Below are positions 18,101 to 30,100 of a DNA stretch of 64,000 nt, in pieces; within the stretch, counting starts at the first letter, position 1; each line of letters starts with the position of its first letter. Made by a program: the position numbers and the translations under genes. Location of the stretch: NCBI GenBank assembly GCA_031841125.1, contig CM063110.1, positions 32,007,214 through 32,071,213 on the forward strand. Reading direction: 5' to 3'. Under the pieces are notes generated by a model, which saw only the letters and a list, made by a program, of their open reading frames with translations, was not told the origin of the DNA and made no database searches. Source of the stretch: Acanthococcus lagerstroemiae. Lineage: Eukaryota; Arthropoda; Insecta; Hemiptera; Eriococcidae.

Positions 18101-21100
18101 TATATATTCCCCTACCAGAATCAAATCAATAAAAACAGAATAAATTATAAGAGCTTATAGGTATATTATCTTTAGTTTTTATCATTCTTGAAGGGATCAG
18201 AGATAACATATGCAAGTCTTTTAGAATTATTAGTCTACAGTAGGACTTCCTAAGACTCTGTGAATTGTGAAATTCTAACCACTGTGATTCGGTATAGTGT
18301 ATTCAATAGAAAAAAATGATATATATCAACCTTCATCATTCGTTCACTATCCCTTGACCAACATAATGACAGCAAACCTACAGTGAAGATACGAAACTAA
18401 TTCCGTCAGTTTGATGGTTCTTATCATCTTATCAGCTCTAGCTATTACAAAGAAGAGAATTTGTTTAGTAGGTACTCACTTGATACCTTAATGTCCATTG
18501 ATTTGTATGAAGACATGGGGACAATGGGTACTTCTACATAAAGTGTGGCATCTCATGTAATCGCTGATTTCTGAATGAGCAAAGGCATTATCCACAATAA
18601 AATACGCGTATAGTTGGACAGAGAATAGAAAGTTCTATCAAATCATACTGAAAACACCGACCTCTGGTTTAAGAAAAAAATCTCAAACTTGAGCAAAGGG
18701 TCAAAAATTCCATAGTCATGGATGTAAACATTCGATATTTTCGTTGTTTTCCGCAATTTATTGAGTTAGAATTTCTTTGTGAATGTAAATCTGTATGCAC
18801 GATGTTTCTCATTGATAAAAGTAGTGTGGCTGGCCATACTGATCGCCACTACTAAAGATAAGTGATTGGTCTGGGTTAACTTGAAACCGTGTACCGGCAT
18901 TGAAAGCGGTTTCTTGGCCTTGTAACGATACGAATCTGAAAAGTTCTGTTCAGTTTGATGCATGGAAGTCTCGAAGGTAGTTTCCCGTTACGTATCGAAA
19001 CGTGCGAAAATGGTCACTCTACCTACCACCGGTCGTTGTGTAGGTGGGGTTATCTATTTCCCGGCGGTTTCGATATGGCTGGTCGATCTACCTTCGAGCA
19101 ACGGAGCGGGCTTTTAGCTGGCCGATGCCCTTTGTACGATAGAGATGTTCGCGTATGTTTAGCGATTTTTCATAGTTTGAAGTTCGACGTACATTCCTTA
19201 TGTCGTAAATCCGAAGTTATCAAAACTCAAATACCGTAATTCGTACTTTTAACGTGTAGTTCGTTATGTTCGCTACCGCATTAATGATCTGATCGTTGTC
19301 GATATGTAAGTCGTGATCACGGATATCAGGGGAGGGCCGGCCATGCCGAGACACCACAGAATCATATTCATCGCCGCTGTTAAGATCGTCTTGGACGAGT
19401 AAAACACCGCACTGGATGCCGCAGTGATGCTCCGAAGGGACCCACCGAGGGCCTCCAGCCATTAACCAATGGATGTTTTGCCTACGTTTTGTCACACCTA
19501 AGTTACTCTCTGGATAGTCGAAGTGCTCATACTGCCGAGAGCCGTTCATATGACGCTGATGATGCTGCCGTTCAAGTCCGGAAAGATCCTGATTACCTAA
19601 GTTTTGTCGATGGGCCACAGTGTTCGCGTTTTTAGTTATTGTTCTCTGCCACTACGTTTAAAAGGAAAAACGTCAAATTTCGTTATTTTTTATGGCTTCT
19701 CAAAAATGGGAAAGGGGGTATTAATGTTTCTTCCTATATTATCATACATGTGTTTCAGTTTCTGACGGAAAATATCCAACACGGGGAGAGCTCTTCTCGT
19801 CGGTTCATATCTCAAAGGTAACGATACATTTACAATTGTTTACCCTTAGATCGTGTATTGTGGGTTTTGGGATTAGATGAATGTTGCTGACCACACTTAT
19901 TTTCGCTAATTTGTATTTATTTAATTGTATTTGCCGGGATAAGGTGGACCATTAATTAGGCCTTGTGCCATGGGGTTAACTCTTATTTCACCTATCTCCC
20001 TCCCCTTTTCATTGGTTTCGTACCGGGAGTAAATCTATGTTCCTAGTCAATTTGATTTGTCTTCATTTGTTACCATTTTAAATTCATTTCTTGCTGTGGT
20101 CAGCACCCGAAGTTTCACATCCCTAGTAATTGTTGCTTTCGCGTCTGGTTTGTGTTTGAGCTCCCTGTTCTCCGTTATTAATAATTCTGTTCTTTATCAT
20201 TGTTATGTCCCCCTCGCCTTTTGTTATGTTATACTTATTTTTCATTTGTTATTACATTTTCTTAGTTGAATGGCATCCCTGTTTTTTGATTTTTGCTGGA
20301 GACGTTCCTCCGTTACACAGCTATGCTGCTTCTCAGATATGAGTGCTGGACTGGGAGCGTTGTTCCCAGTTTCCCATGCCTCATATTTCTGGCATCTGCC
20401 TGGTGAGGGAACGTCTCCCACACCTTTGGAATCCTTTTAGCGCTAATTCTCTGGGGCAGTTTGAAACATTATAACCAACTGGATGCGGTTGGCTCTTACT
20501 GTCCCTGGAGAATTTAGCTTTGGGCTATTGGGGCCGTTCTCTCTCTTGTCATATAAAGCTCAGTCGATAAGACTCCCAGTAGCTAGTTGGTCCCGAACTA
20601 GTTACAAAATCTCCACTATTTTTCTAACATCTAGTGATGCTAAATTTCATTTTCTTCCCCAATCAACCTTTTGGTTTTTTTCCCGGAGTAATTACCTTTC
20701 TACTCCACTGGCGCGGTTAGGTTCTGACACCTCTGTGGAAGATTAGTTGTCCCCGCTACCTTCCGCATGTCTGTGTGCCGTTTGAGCCGGCCAGGAGATC
20801 GGACCCTTTGCGTGTTACCATCTCCGGAGGGCGAGGGAAACCTGGCCAGGACCTAACTATTCCCTGCTAGATTGGTAATTTGGGTTTGCCTGCTGGTACT
20901 TTGATATCGTTTCAAACCCAGTGGTCAAATGAGCTTTCCGAAAGAGAGAACGAAAATTCCAAGCAAAATTTAGTTTTTCTTCCCTTTTTAATGTACTGTG
21001 GTGTTCTCGCTCCTGTCTTGGCCTTCACCCCTCGTTGTGTAATTTGCTTTATTTAATTGTTATTTTCTTATTTGGTTATTTAGTTTTAATAAGCTATCTT

Positions 21101-24100
21101 TTAATAATACCTTTATTGTTAGTCTCGTGCTCCACTGTAGTGAGGTCTGTGGCTATTCGTAGGATCTTCGTTTTATAGTTCAATTTGCGACATCTCCGGT
21201 ATTGATATGGGTTCACGTAGCCATCAATACTGTACACGGGACAATAGGCCACCTTTGGGCTATTATAATGAGCGAGACAGCGTGGATCAGCGCGTCGAAC
21301 AAGTGATGGCTGGTCTCAACCGTCTGTCTCTGTCGCCCTCCCATGTCAACGGTAATCCAGGGGCTAATCTACCGAACAATGAGGCTAGTGACAGTATGGT
21401 CACCGAGAATCCGGAAAATTGTGGTGACGAAGTCCATGGGGCAGGTGATAGTGATGCCGTGGGTAACGGGGCAGGTAACTCGGGTCCCAGGCAAACACCC
21501 CCGGATGGTTCGATTACATTCACCCCGGAGGAATTAAGAAAATTCGTGTCTGATATCGTACGTTCGGTAGTCAATGAGCCACATGCTCACCAAAATCAAA
21601 AAGAGGTGCCTAGACATCAGTCAGTCCCTACTTCTGCTACACAAAATAATGATCACCTTTGGTCGACTCGTAGGGGTGACCGCCCAGAGTTAACCCAAGC
21701 TTCGGCTTGTTGCCATCAGAATCCAGGGAGTCGTTACCAGCAAACTTTCACAGTCCCTGACTGCCTACCTGTATTTCGTGACGATGGTACTCTTATGCCC
21801 GTACGATTCCTAGAAGAGCTAGAAACATAGTTCGAAGTTTATCAGCCACCAGAGACTCATAAAATTCTATGGCTAAGAAACCGAGTGCGTGTGCCAAATC
21901 CGAATTGGGATCTCCACTTGTCCGTCTCGTTCGCGTCATACCAGGAGTATCGTGATTCGTTCCTCGGGACGTTTTGGAACCCGAGTGCCCAGATGGCAAC
22001 TTACGAAGAATTTCGGCGTCTTAGGTTGGATGTGTTCGACTTGTCGAAGGCACGCGGCGTTATCCTTAATTGGTATACTAAGCTAACGGCTTTGACCGAG
22101 TTTTTCATACCACCTAAACAAGCCATAAAGGAAATCAAAAATAAATTGCCATTCGAGGTACGTCGCGCTCTGGCGGACCGTTTCGAGGACGATATCAACG
22201 AGCTCCTGGATCGCATTGTCGCTGCTGTAACCCATTTCAAGGAACTTAATATATTAAAACCAGAAAAAAATCAATCCTATCAGTCGAACCACAGTAACCC
22301 AATGCGCAACGGCGCTAACAATTTCAGTAATACTAGGAGCCACTTCCGTGATAATCGTCAAAATGGCAGTCAGTCAGAAAATCACCAGGCTCATAATAGA
22401 CACAATCCTCATCCGTCTAATTTTAACAATCGCCTTCGTGGAAATCAAACCGGCAATGCAAGCCAAGTAAGCCAAATTTTCCATGATGATTCGGTTGAAA
22501 TGGAACGTGTTTCTCCTCCAACCGGGGGCACTCCCCCAACAAGTGGTAACCAAGACGCTAGTTACGAGAGTCGTGGTCATGACGGACGGGACTGGTTCCC
22601 CATTCCTCATACCTCTGACAATCGTGGTTTCCAGCGGCCAAATTATCACAACCATTCATCGGGAAACGGGTCTCGGTCGCACTGAGAGATCGGGCAGCCG
22701 TCGACCGTCTCCCCCTCGTTAAATCCCGATGGAACTCAACCCCGGAAAGTCGAGGCCCATCTTCTGAAACGAAACCATCATTCGATATTTCTCGCATGCG
22801 CCGTGTCCATAACATGTTTCAACTCGTCGGTGATACAATTGCTTTTCAAATCGCAAAATATTGTAACTTTCGGTTCATTCGGAAAACCCCGCAGGCTTCG
22901 GCACGCCATCATCTAGCTTTCGAGCATATTACAACAAAATTTCTGGCGAATGCTGTTATCAAATGTAATCAATTTCATGAACATTTATTTCTGTCAGTGG
23001 GTTTTACAGACATGTTATACGGTCCATCCTACTATGAAGTCGGCGACGACTTCGCTACCTGCCTGCAAAGGATTTTAGAGCATGTCTTTGAAAGAGGCAC
23101 AAAACATATTGTTCTGTTAACACCTCCGCCTTATCCAGCAGTTAATTACAGCGATATCAGTAGATGGTCATTCCACAACGTGATCTTAGACTCGATAAAC
23201 GAGTTGAGTCGGGCATTCGCTTCTCGCATTACATTAATCGACGTCGATAGTAAAATTTTCACAAAGATAAACCCACATGATAAGGTATTCACTTATGTGA
23301 ACAATGTACCAAAAATTAACCGGCAATTATTCTCGAATGCGTACCGCCTCGGTCACCGGAACCGAATCTTTCTGTCAAACGACATAATTCGATCGATATT
23401 AGGTAAATTAAAATCAATAACCGGTCCTAATCTAGGGAATGAACCCATTGAAGATGAGGAAGTATTCAAAACGGCTGATCTTTTTACAATCGATGTGCCA
23501 TCCACAACCGTTGGCGTTGAGAAACAGTTGTCCAGTGTCATTCCGCGTGTGTGTCTTACTCCATTCGGGATCAAAATGCACGCGTTGATCGACACAGGGG
23601 CATCGATTTCTTTCATCGCCGACGATGTGGCGAATTATCTCGCCGATAAAGGCCACAATTTAATGCGTGGTCAACTCGATTTCCCTCTCAAATTAAAACT
23701 CGCAGCCGGCGCAACTGCGGCTAGAGAATACGTAATATTACCCGTGCCTATAGTGCCAGATATGTCTGAGGTCTATCCCTTTGTTATCTTACCGGGTATG
23801 TCGGAAGGATGCATCCTTGGTTCTGACGTCATCTTACGGTTTAATTTGAATTTTAATTATAAAAATAATATTATGGTTGGGACTCACCGAGCGGGAAACT
23901 TCGCGCGTGAGTTTAATCTTTACACAGCGCCTCACCCTGTTACAATCGAATACCAAGAGAGTAACTCAAAGTCTATCTCCATTCAGAACATAATGCCGGA
24001 TGCGCTCACTCAGGTCTCTGCTCTCGAAGGGCAGATGGATCCTGATACGAGTCACCGCATATCCCGCGAAGAGACGCGTGAACTACTGGGTCTGTTGGAA

Positions 24101-27100
24101 AAGAAAATTGAGTACGCCGTGTTGCATAAGTATATCTCTCCCGAGCAGGGCAAAGTTGCATTCGCAGAGTTAGCTCATTTTATTCCTGTCTTTCGTTCCC
24201 AACTTGGGTTGTATAATCGATATAAGGTGTCATTTGAGGTGTCGCCGACCGAGCGTTGGATTCCTAAATCATATCCTGTGCCAATTAAGATGCCTGTCAA
24301 AGTCCGGCAAGAAATCACTCGTTTGCTGAAAGCTGGAATCATTGAACAATCGAATACGAGGTTCATTCATCCACTGGTAGCAGTCACGAAAAAGGATGGG
24401 TCCGTTCGTCTGTGCCTTGACTCTAGTTCACTTAATCGCATTCTGCGTCCGCAACACCACAATCCACCGAAAATTGAGGACGTCATTTTCGAGCAGGAGG
24501 AGTGCACTCTTTACTCATCTACAGATTTCTCAAACGGTTTCCTACAAATCGGGCTGAATGATGACGCTAAAAAATTCCTAGGATTCGAATTTGATGGAAC
24601 CTGCTATCAATATACACGTTTGCCTTTTGGCACTTCCGTTTCTCCTTCCCTGTTTAATCGAGCCGCTAGGGAGGCGATATACACCGACGATGTCGACAAA
24701 AGAACCGTCAAGGTGTATGTCGACGACGTCAAAATTCAAACTATGGAATTTGATTCCCACCTTGCCGAACTATCGAAGTTATGTCGTAATGTGCTACAGT
24801 CTGGGATGACTCTGTCGTTGAAGAAAACAATACTTTTTCACCCGAGCATAAAATTCCTGGGTCACATTTTTTCAAAACAATTCGTCATTCATGATGTAGA
24901 TAAGCTGAGGTTTTTTGACAACTTTCAAGCAAAATATTTAGATAAGCCAACATTCACAAACAAGAAACCAATACAGGAGTTGCTGGGCTTCACCAATTGG
25001 TTCTCTCGCTTCATCCCTAACTACGTAGAACTAGTGCAACCGTACATGAATCTATTAAGTAAAAATCCGCCATACATAGTAACTCCCGTCCTTAGGGAAT
25101 GTTTTGAGCAAATAAGAGAAAGGTTCGCGCAACGGCAGCCCCTGTCCTTCCCCGTGAAAGATCAACCTTTCCTTATAAAGGTGGCTGCGAGTGATACGTT
25201 CGTGGTGGGTTGTATTTTTCAACATGTTAATGGAGAATCTAATATTATAACCATGGTTAACCACCGATTTCCCCAAACTGCAATGTCTAAATCGTCAGAT
25301 TATAAAAATTATTATGCTGTATACTATACGCTAAAGCGGTATCAAGTGTTGCTAACTGAAAACACCATCATACTTGAATATCGTTTCGCCTCACTGCTAA
25401 AGAAAATGTCTGACTTAGTGCCTGTAAATGCGATGATAGCCAAAATAATGTATTTATTCATCAACTCATTCAACATAAATTGTACCGCAGAGGCTGACAC
25501 TAGATTCGAACAATTGGTAAAATCGCTACAAAGCTCAGCTGTGCTTAGTTTGCTACAGCTGGAGGAAAAATTGACGTCAACCTTTGCAGTAAAGTCGCCT
25601 GACAACGAGGTTGCAGCAGACTATGACGAAGACTCGCCAATTGGCTTCAAGGCCGAGTGCTGTACATTATGCTCAGCCGTAATACAGCAGGTCGGCGGTC
25701 ATTCGGATGGCCTGGCTTCGGAACTTTTACGCCAATCCCTCGCCGATGTCAAGTTACATCAACAGGGAGACCCCTTCTGCTCCAAGATTCGAAATAAATT
25801 GCAATCTAATAGTCACATATTGGGAGCTTTTCGGGAACAATATGTGGTTCAAGATGAAGTATTATACCGCGTCACCCCTGAAGGCAACTTATTAATAATC
25901 CCAAATGCCATAATTACCCACCTAATAAATTTTTATCATCAATTTTATGGCCATCCTGGCGTCAATAAGACAACTGTCCTGATTAGCCGTTCATTTTATT
26001 ACCCTAATCTGGATGGCCAAGTGCGGCGCATCATATCGCAGTGCCTGCCTTGCAAGCAGAACAAGTCACCAAATGCATCAAATAAACCTCGACCGTGCAA
26101 TGTGACCGCCGACTTCCCATTTAAGTTAGTGTCATGCGATATATACGGTCCCATCCCCATTAGGGCCAACGGCGTTGTCGCTCTTTTCGTTGCCCAAGAT
26201 GTCTTTTCGGGTCACGTGTCAATTCGTGGCATGAAATCAATGCGTGCTTCAAGTTTCGTTTATGCTATAAAAAAGATCTTAGATGAGTGTCAGGTCCTTG
26301 GTTATCACATCAATACTCTTTTGTCGGATAATGCAACCCAATTCCGAAGCAATGAGTTTAATGAGTTCTTAGAAAAAATGCGTATTTCGCATCGGTATAT
26401 AACTCCCTACAACGCCAACGCGAATCCGGTAGAACGTCAGATGCGTGTCATCTCCGAGAAACTACGCTTGATAATTAATGACCCCGATAGTCCACATGAC
26501 GACCACACCCGTTGGTTCAGCTACATTAAAGAAGTACAATTTTCAATAAACTCCGTTGCTAAGTCCCATGGATATTCCCCTCTAGAGGTTCTCGGGGTCC
26601 GGGTTGACAATCCTGTTGGACGGGACTTTGAATATCGCATTCCGCATCCAAAGTATAAACTCGCTTCCACCATTAAAAACATGGAGTTACAGGGATCAGT
26701 TAATGATCTATCGCAGCCAATGAAAGAGAAATCTATCGACTTCATTTACGACAGGGATGGCGCCGTTCATGTATGGACAGACGGTGGCGCACTTAGGAAT
26801 GGTTGTAAGGAGGCTTTGTCGGCATACGCGGTATGGTTTTCCACTAACAGTCCTGCTAACCAGTCGAAAATCATCGAGCCGAAGGTTACAAATAACCAGG
26901 CGAAGGTAATCGCAGTAATTCAGGCTCTGCGTATTAGTTTAGCTGGCAGGGCTAGAAAAATAGTTGTCCATACGGATTCGGGTTATATTGTCGACCTATT
27001 TGATTCTGGCTCCCTATCGATGGACAATCCTAGGCTAGAATCTTACAGTAATGTTAAGTGGCTAAAAATTCTGATACATTATATTGAGGCCTTACCCGCC

Positions 27101-30100
27101 GGATCTGTCCGCTTGGTCCACACAAATGGACATACGGCGGACTTCGGTAACCTTGAAGTTGATTGGGCGGTGGGCGAAGTTTTTAAATCGTACATCGAAA
27201 ATCTCGAATGCCTCAATGAATGCTTAGCTCCCGAAAGTACCCTTACAAAGTCCATCCAAAGTTATATCGCCACTGTTAAGCTACAAAAGATGCGTAGGCT
27301 CGAACACGACAATAACACTCGTCCTGTCTCGGAATTTACAAGACTCCTACCAGGAGATGTCGTAACGCTGAGGGTGCATGCTCTCAGGCGTATTATGGCA
27401 TCTCCAAAAAGTTCCATAAAAAGTTCGATGGCGAATATCTGGTCGTACAAAAGTGGTGCACGAACGCCTATCTCATCGTGAGCCTTGAACCTAATGCCGT
27501 CCCCTTTGTCGTGAACGTTAGGCAGCTGCGACTTGTGCGCCGTCGCACCGGTAGTTCTCCAGTAGGCTCCAGTTAGCTGCGTCCATGCATTCGCTGGTGG
27601 ATCTCCCCTTACAGGAGTGGTTCCCCAGGGGGCATATGATGCATGGAAGTCTCGAAGGTAGTTTCCCGTTACGTATCGAAACGTGCGAAAATGGTCACTC
27701 TACCTACCACCGGTCGTTGTGTAGGTGGGGTTATCTATTTCCCGGCGGTTTCGATATGGCTGGTCGATCTACCTTCGAGCAACGGAGCGGGCTTTTAGCT
27801 GGCCGATGCCCTTTGTACGATAGAGATGTTCGCGTATGTTTAGCGATTTTTCATAGTTTGAAGTTCGACGTACATTCCTTATGTCGTAAATCCGAAGTTA
27901 TCAAAACTCAAATACCGTAATTCGTACTTTTAACGTGTAGTTCGTTATGTTCGCTACCGCATTAATGATCTGATCGTTGTCGATATGTAAGTCGTGATCA
28001 CGGATATCAGGGGAGGGCCGGGCCATGCCGAGACACCACAGAATCATATTCATCGCCGCTGTTAAGATCGTCTTGGACGAGTAAAACACCGCACTGGATG
28101 CCGCAGTGATGCTCCGAAGGGACCCACCGAGGGGCCTCCAGCCATTAACCAATGGATGTTTTGCCTACGTTTTGTCACACCTAAGTTACTCTCTGGATAG
28201 TCGAAGTGCTCATACTGCCGAGAGCCGTTCATATGACGCTGATGATGCTGCCGTTCAAGTCCGGAAAGATCCTGGTTACCTAAGTTTTGTCGATGGGCCA
28301 CAGTGTTCGCGTTTTTAGTTATTGTTCTCTGCCACTACGTTTAAAAGGAAAAACGTCAAATTTCGTTATTTTTTATGGCTTCTCAAAAATGGGAAAGGGG
28401 GTATTAATGTTTCTTCCTATATTATCATACATGTGTTTCAGTTTCTGACGGAAAATATCCAACACGGGGAGAGCTCTTCTCGTCGGTTCATATCTCAAAG
28501 GTAACGATACATTTACAATTGTTTACCCTTAGATCGTGTATTGTGGGTTTTGGGATTAGATGAATGTTGCTGACCACACTTATTTTCGCTAATTTGTATT
28601 TATTTAATTGTATTTGCCGGGATAAGGTGGACCATTAATTAGGCCTTGTGCCATGGGGTTAACTCTTATTCCACCTATCTCCCTCCCCTTTTCATTGGTT
28701 TCGTACCGGGAGTAAATCTATGTTCCTAGTCAATTTGATTTGTCTTCATTTGTTACCATTTTAAATTCATTTCTTGCTGTGGTCAGCACCCGAAGTTTCA
28801 CATCCCTAGTAATTGTTGCTTTCGCGTCTGGTTTGTGTTTGAGCTCCCTGTTCTCCGTTATTAATAATTCTGTTCTTTATCATTGTTATGTCCCCCTCGC
28901 CTTTTGTTATGTTATACTTATTTTTCATTTGTTATTACATTTTCTTAGTTGAATGGCATCCCTGTTTTTTGATTTTTGCTGGAGACGTTCCTCCGTTACA
29001 CAGCTATGCTGCTTCTCAGATATGAGTGCTGGACTGGGAGCGTTGTTCCCAGTTTCCCATGCCTCAAGTTTATGATTTCTACCAAAAATTATTTCCGTGG
29101 TCATGGTGTTGAATTCCTGCACTAATTAAAGAGGAAATTGTAAATACTTCTAGTCGTATCATGAATAAGTATGCCGTATTACACCTTGATAGTAATTTTA
29201 TTGCAATGATATCGGAAGTCACCAACTCAGAATTTCATGAAATTTCTTCTATGGTCGCAGTTGACTTTTTCCCTTATTTTTCTTTTTTTTCTTTTTCATC
29301 GTCGTGAAACGGCCAATATTTAGAAACATGACGATGGAGCTGATTGTAAAGTATGGGGATACTTATATACATTTCCTAATATTCATTACCCTCTTAACTG
29401 CTGCAGAGATCAAATATTTTACAAATTATCTAAATCCACAACATTTTCAAGAGCGCTAAAATTTGATGTACATGTCAAGGACCTTTAAACTGACAATTTT
29501 TTTTTCCTTTTGTTTACCTTAAGTACTAAAAATATTGCGTCTCCCGTCATAATATAATTATATTTTTTAAATACGTACCTAAAATTAATATAATCTGAAA
29601 GTTAGGTACTATTCTTTTTTCTTTTTATTATTATTATTATATTATTATTATTTAGTTTCTTTTTCCTATAAATATTACTTTTTTTCTCGTAATATAATTC
29701 TATTTTCTAGTTTTTAAATTCCTGAAATATGAACTGAAAGTTACTATATTTAAGTGTTCTGTTTGACTGTTTTTGATTATTTTCTATGTCAAGTTCTCAA
29801 ATTTTCAAAAGTTTCAATTTTCCTTTCAAGTGTTTTATTTGACTATCTAGTCAAAATTATGCCAAATATGGACACTGAGCAAATAAAGCAATAAGAATGG
29901 TCTATTTTAGCATTCTTATTGTGAATTTCCTTTGTCATATAAATGAAGTTTCCATCGTCGTGTTCCATTTTTCCATGACTGTGTCTAAAATGCGTTGCAC
30001 CTCCTCTCCAGGGGGTTCTTCTGCTTGCAAAATAATATTGTTGCATTCTGCTGTATGTGTACCAACAGTTCCATGTAGAAACGTGAGGAAAAACAGAGAA

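Follow-up and report, generated by a model that had tools for sequence, protein, structure and literature searches.

Elements that captured a second ribonuclease H (RNase H) while the first one decayed have been published from plants, oomycetes, sea anemones and retroviruses. Throughout the reports that we draw on, the new domain lies at the reverse transcriptase (RT), ahead of it or immediately after it, or else has a frame of its own (PMC10508981, PMC5348765, PMC9040795). Tat elements of land plants come in five structures: the extra RNase H adjoins the native one, precedes RT, has its own frame ahead of pol or ahead of gag, or occurs twice in tandem. No Tat structure has the extra domain in or after the integrase, and the native RNase H is degraded in all that carry it (PMC10508981). 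RNase H-integrase tandems and the reversed copia order appear in the excerpted text of a 2014 survey of RNase H-like folds (PMC3985635). Here we describe a long terminal repeat (LTR) retrotransposon on the + strand of a 64,000-nucleotide stretch of the Acanthococcus lagerstroemiae genome (contig CM063110.1, positions 32,007,214 to 32,071,213; hereafter the window, to which all coordinates refer). The element occupies 18956-29066. Its integrase contains a second RNase H, nested between the catalytic core and the C-terminal module. This position is conserved in frame among relatives, and the catalytic site of the nested domain is retained while that of the native RNase H has decayed. The arrangement is a real and conserved variant of RNase H capture, undescribed as far as the open-licence literature shows: our searches of that literature turned up no account of an integrase with the order core-RNase H-C-terminal module.

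Nested RNase H of the window copy

The Pfam family RNase_H (PF00075) matches the pol piece 25619-27478 at window positions 26762-27175 on the + strand (E=2e-12, 47.9 bits, cut-off 25.8). The match lies downstream of the integrase core (26117-26413) and upstream of the C-terminal module, which starts at 27353. Pol thus contains a second type I RNase H domain, as in other dual-RNase-H elements. A profile of six family members compared with the PDB has human RNase H1 as its top match (55.8 bits, 4.7e-14), followed by the bacterial chain 3h08 (38.6 bits), Escherichia coli variants (26.5 bits or less), a haloarchaeal enzyme (24.2 bits) and retroviral entries (23.1 bits or less). The RNase HI matches in an NCBIfam scan all fell below threshold. 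The active-site histidine is kept in nine of nine nested-domain rows, in place of the arginine that marks the archaeal type (aRNH).

A model reading the letters alone had predicted this domain, and it is found at the predicted place. That original prediction listed the catalytic residues D, D, H and D, all of which are present, but left out the glutamate, at whose position the window copy has a lysine (D-Lys-D-H-D). To match the numbering of the stop-to-stop frame (22619-27481), 59 has to be added to its Pol residue numbers. Besides the lysine, it overlooked that the native RNase H has a decayed active site, the chief pointer to function. Given the lysine at the catalytic glutamate, the nested RNase H of the window copy is probably inactive, and the family's is probably not.

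Integrase C-terminal similarity behind the RNase H had also been expected, and it is there. The pol frame enters the C-terminal module at 27353 with the motif GDVVTLRV (27353-27388, + strand, from the sequence and from alignment to relatives) and exits shortly after. The remainder (27379-27558, + strand, placed by alignment to relatives) is in a frame that differs from pol. In a single comparison, this out-of-frame tail is identical to the C-terminal module of one relative (P0104) at 28 of 60 residues (47%, E=5e-17). The Pfam family SH3_Tf2-1 matches the tail weakly, under the cut-off (E=0.037).

Relatives in protein databases

A first protein search, with the integrase piece, gave a single weak match (P0001). 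Searching with the RT region returned 102 proteins. Five of the 102 contain PF00075, and these five rank best. The sixth-ranked protein, P0007, is a fragment of 718 amino acids that stops within the H2C2 zinc domain; it contributes to the counts for native RNase H and for RT, and to none for integrase. A second search, with residues 1290-1640 of P0002, returned five proteins. The new ones are P0104, P0105 and P0106, the last from a 26.9 Mb contig of the scale insect Parthenolecanium corni. Scanning viral contigs gave no matches.

All eight relatives have the order core-RNase H-C-terminal module, and in seven the complete module is in frame. In neither the window nor any of the eight does the new RNase H adjoin the native one, precede RT or occupy a frame of its own; the domain always follows the core. 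From the end of the core to the start of the module there are 246-253 amino acids in the window and the eight relatives, versus 55-59 in four outgroup integrases, the four rows that make up this control. The difference in spacing corresponds to about 190-200 extra residues inserted into the linker. At the C-terminal motif, family rows with the whole module have G-E/Q-Y/F and the four outgroup rows have GPY.

In P0005, residues 1621-1673 match a CC2D1-type DM14 domain (PF21528, 5.9e-7, above cut-off) after the integrase C-terminal module. DM14 domains bind the ESCRT-III protein CHMP4. Conceivably, the element captured this domain from its host and uses it in a role resembling budding.

Copies in the same genome

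The assembly that contains the window (658 Mb, 438 contigs) was searched with the nested domain, giving 49 matches including the window's own. These are match stretches, and certain copies contribute two. Nested-domain identities fall into classes of about 95-98%, 81%, about 51% and about 40%. We fetched 20 of the 48 non-window matches, selected by match length and identity; several of the 28 left unfetched score the same as L013, a fetched piece with stops. In 15 of the 20 pieces, core, RNase H and module lie in a single stop-free frame. Further copies lie on several contigs, and identity within classes reaches 99.9%, which indicates that more than one subfamily spread recently.

The original prediction had asked whether the order is kept with an intact frame or is private to this copy; relatives and genome pieces agree on the former. 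The same counts make a programmed frameshift in the C-terminal module unlikely, since the module is in frame in seven of eight relatives and in those 15 pieces.

Catalytic residues and selection

The native RNase H (25091-25372, + strand, Pfam 7e-12) is of gypsy type and lacks the D-E-D residues in the window copy. D-E-D is kept in none of the ten lineage rows versus 88 of 97 outgroup rows. Nine outgroup rows are without it: in four the alignment has a gap in at least one of the three columns, and in five a residue is changed. P0106 retains the aspartate at the third column, alone among the lineage rows. We also inspected the native RNase H of eight other genome pieces: one had no match, and the seven that aligned lack D-E-D by reading of the alignment. 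The native domain is therefore degraded, as it is in dual-RNase-H elements.

The nested domain has D-E-D-H-D in all eight relatives and in 19 of the 20 genome pieces. The D-D-E of the integrase is present in nine of nine rows. Of twelve pairs compared for the nested domain, seven were usable, and in these the ratio of nonsynonymous to synonymous substitution rates (dN/dS) spans 0.11-0.42; the other five were saturated or nearly so, and the pairs are not independent of each other. From these residues we infer that the nested domain is probably active as an RNase H in the family.

Phylogeny and structure

An 18-row RT tree sets the ten lineage members on one side of a branch with support 100/100. 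A quick tree of 41 rows likewise had the seven members then known on one side of a branch. The nested-domain and integrase-core trees concur in two pairings, P0005 with P0006 and P0003 with P0106. A single capture that preceded the split of the lineage is the simplest reading.

The predicted structure of the P0002 integrase piece (pLDDT 81.4, pTM 0.74) matches foamy virus integrase on either side of the insert. Against viral models, the 50 Foldseek matches listed are mostly retroviral polyproteins, with one pithovirus RNase H. Outside the lineage, the closest database matches are Pol proteins of gypsy-like type. The RT tree was built without retroviral, Odin or caulimoviral RT. When the window RT was compared with the PDB, the best entries scored 98 bits, followed by caulimovirus (88), Ty3 (86) and murine leukaemia-type entries (about 45-50). 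We take the 98-bit entries to be those of foamy virus. Given these scores, 'gypsy-type' is used here for the domain order and the closest database proteins and does not assign the lineage a settled position in the tree.

Proposed explanation and alternatives

We consider it probable that a gypsy-type lineage took a cellular RNase H1-like domain into its integrase, in the linker between the core and the SH3/GPY-type C-terminal module, and that the newcomer replaced the native RNase H. The window element is a recently inserted, damaged copy of that lineage. The nested domain would then do the RNase H work of reverse transcription, namely removing template RNA and making and removing primers. It would do so from the integrase part of Pol, either within an RT-integrase polyprotein or through contact between integrase and RT. 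There is some precedent in Ty3. In the excerpted part of that study, integrase mutants make less minus-strand DNA, CA-RT-IN rescued cDNA production whereas CA-IN did not, and integrase helps cDNA synthesis jointly with RT (PMC5371799). By these results, an RNase H carried on integrase could reach the hybrid.

The least certain step is the fate of the domain after processing. The original prediction had suggested that the position could tie the RNase H to the integration complex or that the protease could release it. Because it is flanked by two parts of one protein, it may stay in the mature integrase, and we put the chances of this as about equal either way. We are similarly divided over a bifunctional integrase, in which one mature protein would have both D-D-E and the sole working RNase H, a single polypeptide would carry out both the final stage of reverse transcription, clearing RNA from the cDNA ends, and integration, and the RNase H of RT would be left as a tether.

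Several observations weigh against the proposed capture and replacement, or narrow it. The window copy itself has lysine for the catalytic glutamate and a frame break. P0004 ends partway through the C-terminal module. The 20 genome pieces are a selection by match length among 48, and even so L013 has stops, L014, L020 and L028 shift frame, L012 has no core match and L021 carries glutamate instead of the second aspartate. The nested-domain and integrase-core trees have few supported branches, and the former joins P0105 to P0004 (87/83) where the RT tree joins P0104 to P0105 (91/90). Given this conflict over P0105, the nested domain may have been exchanged later between members. The 50 structure matches listed for the P0002 model are integrases and two IstA transposases, with none to the nested fold separately. 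Finally, the PDB scores of the RT do not favour Ty3, which makes the group placement of the lineage tentative.

Among the alternatives, the one that survives best has the integrase frame as a carrier only: the protease would free the RNase H for the particle, and the integrase would be rejoined or would work without its C-terminal module. The element does encode a protease, linkers of several tens of residues flank the nested domain on either side, and it is established that Pol proteins of retroviruses and Ty3 are processed into parts. However, two cuts would part the integrase core from its module, yet the module is retained in seven of the eight relatives and its spacing from the core is almost constant. 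We regard release of this kind as unlikely.

More doubtful still is a different function for the nested domain, for example binding nucleic acid as a tether for integrase or clearing host RNA-DNA hybrids from target sites, with host RNase H serving reverse transcription. RNase H folds do act as tethers in retroviruses (PMC10508981), and the nested domain is now distant from RT. But the same proteins that lost the native catalytic residues have retained the nested ones, which mere binding would not preserve. The damage to the window copy would fit chance similarity, assembly error or a private rearrangement, a reading with next to no probability left given the strength of the PF00075 match, the same order in eight relatives from separate records and in 15 of 20 genome pieces, and copies on several contigs.

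Capture into the linker and replacement of the native RNase H thus stay our preferred explanation. If the domain works as proposed, the coupling of reverse transcription and integration would be placed in a single protein amenable to purification and testing.

Element architecture and insertion site

The two LTRs, both TG..CA, were identified by comparison with each other: the 5' LTR has 1428 bases (18956-20383) and the 3' LTR 1430 (27637-29066), both on the + strand. They are 99.5% identical: across 1438 aligned columns, about 8 of which run past the CA end, there are 5 mismatches and 2 gaps. This identity points to a recent insertion. A target site duplication, AGTT, is read from the sequence at 18952-18955 and 29067-29070 (unstranded). 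Paired LTRs, TG..CA ends and a short target site duplication are the marks of an LTR retrotransposon. Frames flanking the element on either side (18952-29070) encode EGF-type repeats, and our own reading, as opposed to a tool result, is that the insertion site is a nidogen-like host gene. The tRNA and Rfam scans gave no matches.

All coding features are on the + strand. By position, gag is a single frame in the open reading frame list (21144-22685) with two open stretches, 21144-21830 and 21831-22685, and one stop between them; Pfam has no match in 21831-22682. The pol frame (22619-27481, same list) is open from stop to stop over 1620 amino acids and is -1 relative to gag. The two overlap at 22619-22685, and their relation would fit a -1 ribosomal frameshift. 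Pol begins with an SGNH-fold domain (22796-23428) whose nearest solved structure is the OSK domain of Drosophila Oskar; the Pfam OSK match is under cut-off (E=0.0015). An aspartic protease follows (23570-23818, DTGAS at 23591), also with a Pfam match under cut-off (9.7e-5), then RT (24386-24868, YVDD at 24716, Pfam 4.6e-20). Behind the native RNase H, the integrase comprises an H2C2 zinc domain (25898-26068, Pfam 7.4e-13) and the catalytic core (rve; 26117-26413, Pfam 1.2e-10), with D-D-E present and its last motif at 26423. The order of protease, RT, RNase H and an integrase with H2C2 and rve is that of Ty3/gypsy elements (Metaviridae), the protease match being the one under cut-off. A copia-like order is ruled out, as RT lies upstream of integrase. 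Only about 60 bases separate the end of the tail frame (27576) from the 3' LTR (27637), and the env gene of Retroviridae is absent there.

Comparison with known systems

The element shares with Ty3 and ordinary animal gypsy elements the order protease-RT-RNase H-integrase and the H2C2, core and SH3-type modules. Those elements differ in having a single catalytic RNase H and, in the four outgroup rows, the short gap between core and module given above. Three further comparisons rest on excerpts of the cited reports. Troyka is likewise a divergent gypsy-like lineage of animals, but it has CG..CG ends and 3-base duplications and is described there as having neither a tether nor a GPF/Y motif (PMC12440569). 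The TG..CA ends and 4-base duplication found here rule out membership. Vesta of bdelloid rotifers, which bears GDSL, is also an LTR element with an SGNH-fold protein. Vesta's is in ORF3 with its catalytic residues intact, whereas the one here lies ahead of the protease and lacks the Ser motif (PMC5408684). Archon and Chronos of oomycetes resemble our element in having a second RNase H and a degraded native one; theirs adjoins the native domain and is of archaeal type, and Chronos has a chromodomain behind the integrase (PMC5348765).

Like Tat, the lineage is gypsy-type, has acquired a second type I RNase H and has a degraded native RNase H; in Tat this decay is found whatever the location of the new domain (PMC10508981). 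Unlike it, the nested domain is closest by profile to human RNase H1 and has the active-site histidine, where the Tat domain is archaeal. Retroviruses, lokiretroviruses and Odin also have a second RNase H, one attributed to a Fungi/Metazoa-like group, and their native one is now a tether; in these accounts the new domain stands immediately behind the tether, ahead of the integrase (PMC9040795, PMC10508981). The original prediction suggested that the position was new relative to Tat, Archon/Chronos and retroviruses. This agrees with the three reports that we draw on, which place the acquired RNase H elsewhere and not in or after the integrase (PMC10508981, PMC5348765, PMC9040795). The same kind of capture has been repeated here, but it was the other enzyme, integrase, that received the domain. 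If the domain works from there, takeover does not need adjacency to RT, which bears on how the retroviral tether and new RNase H arose.

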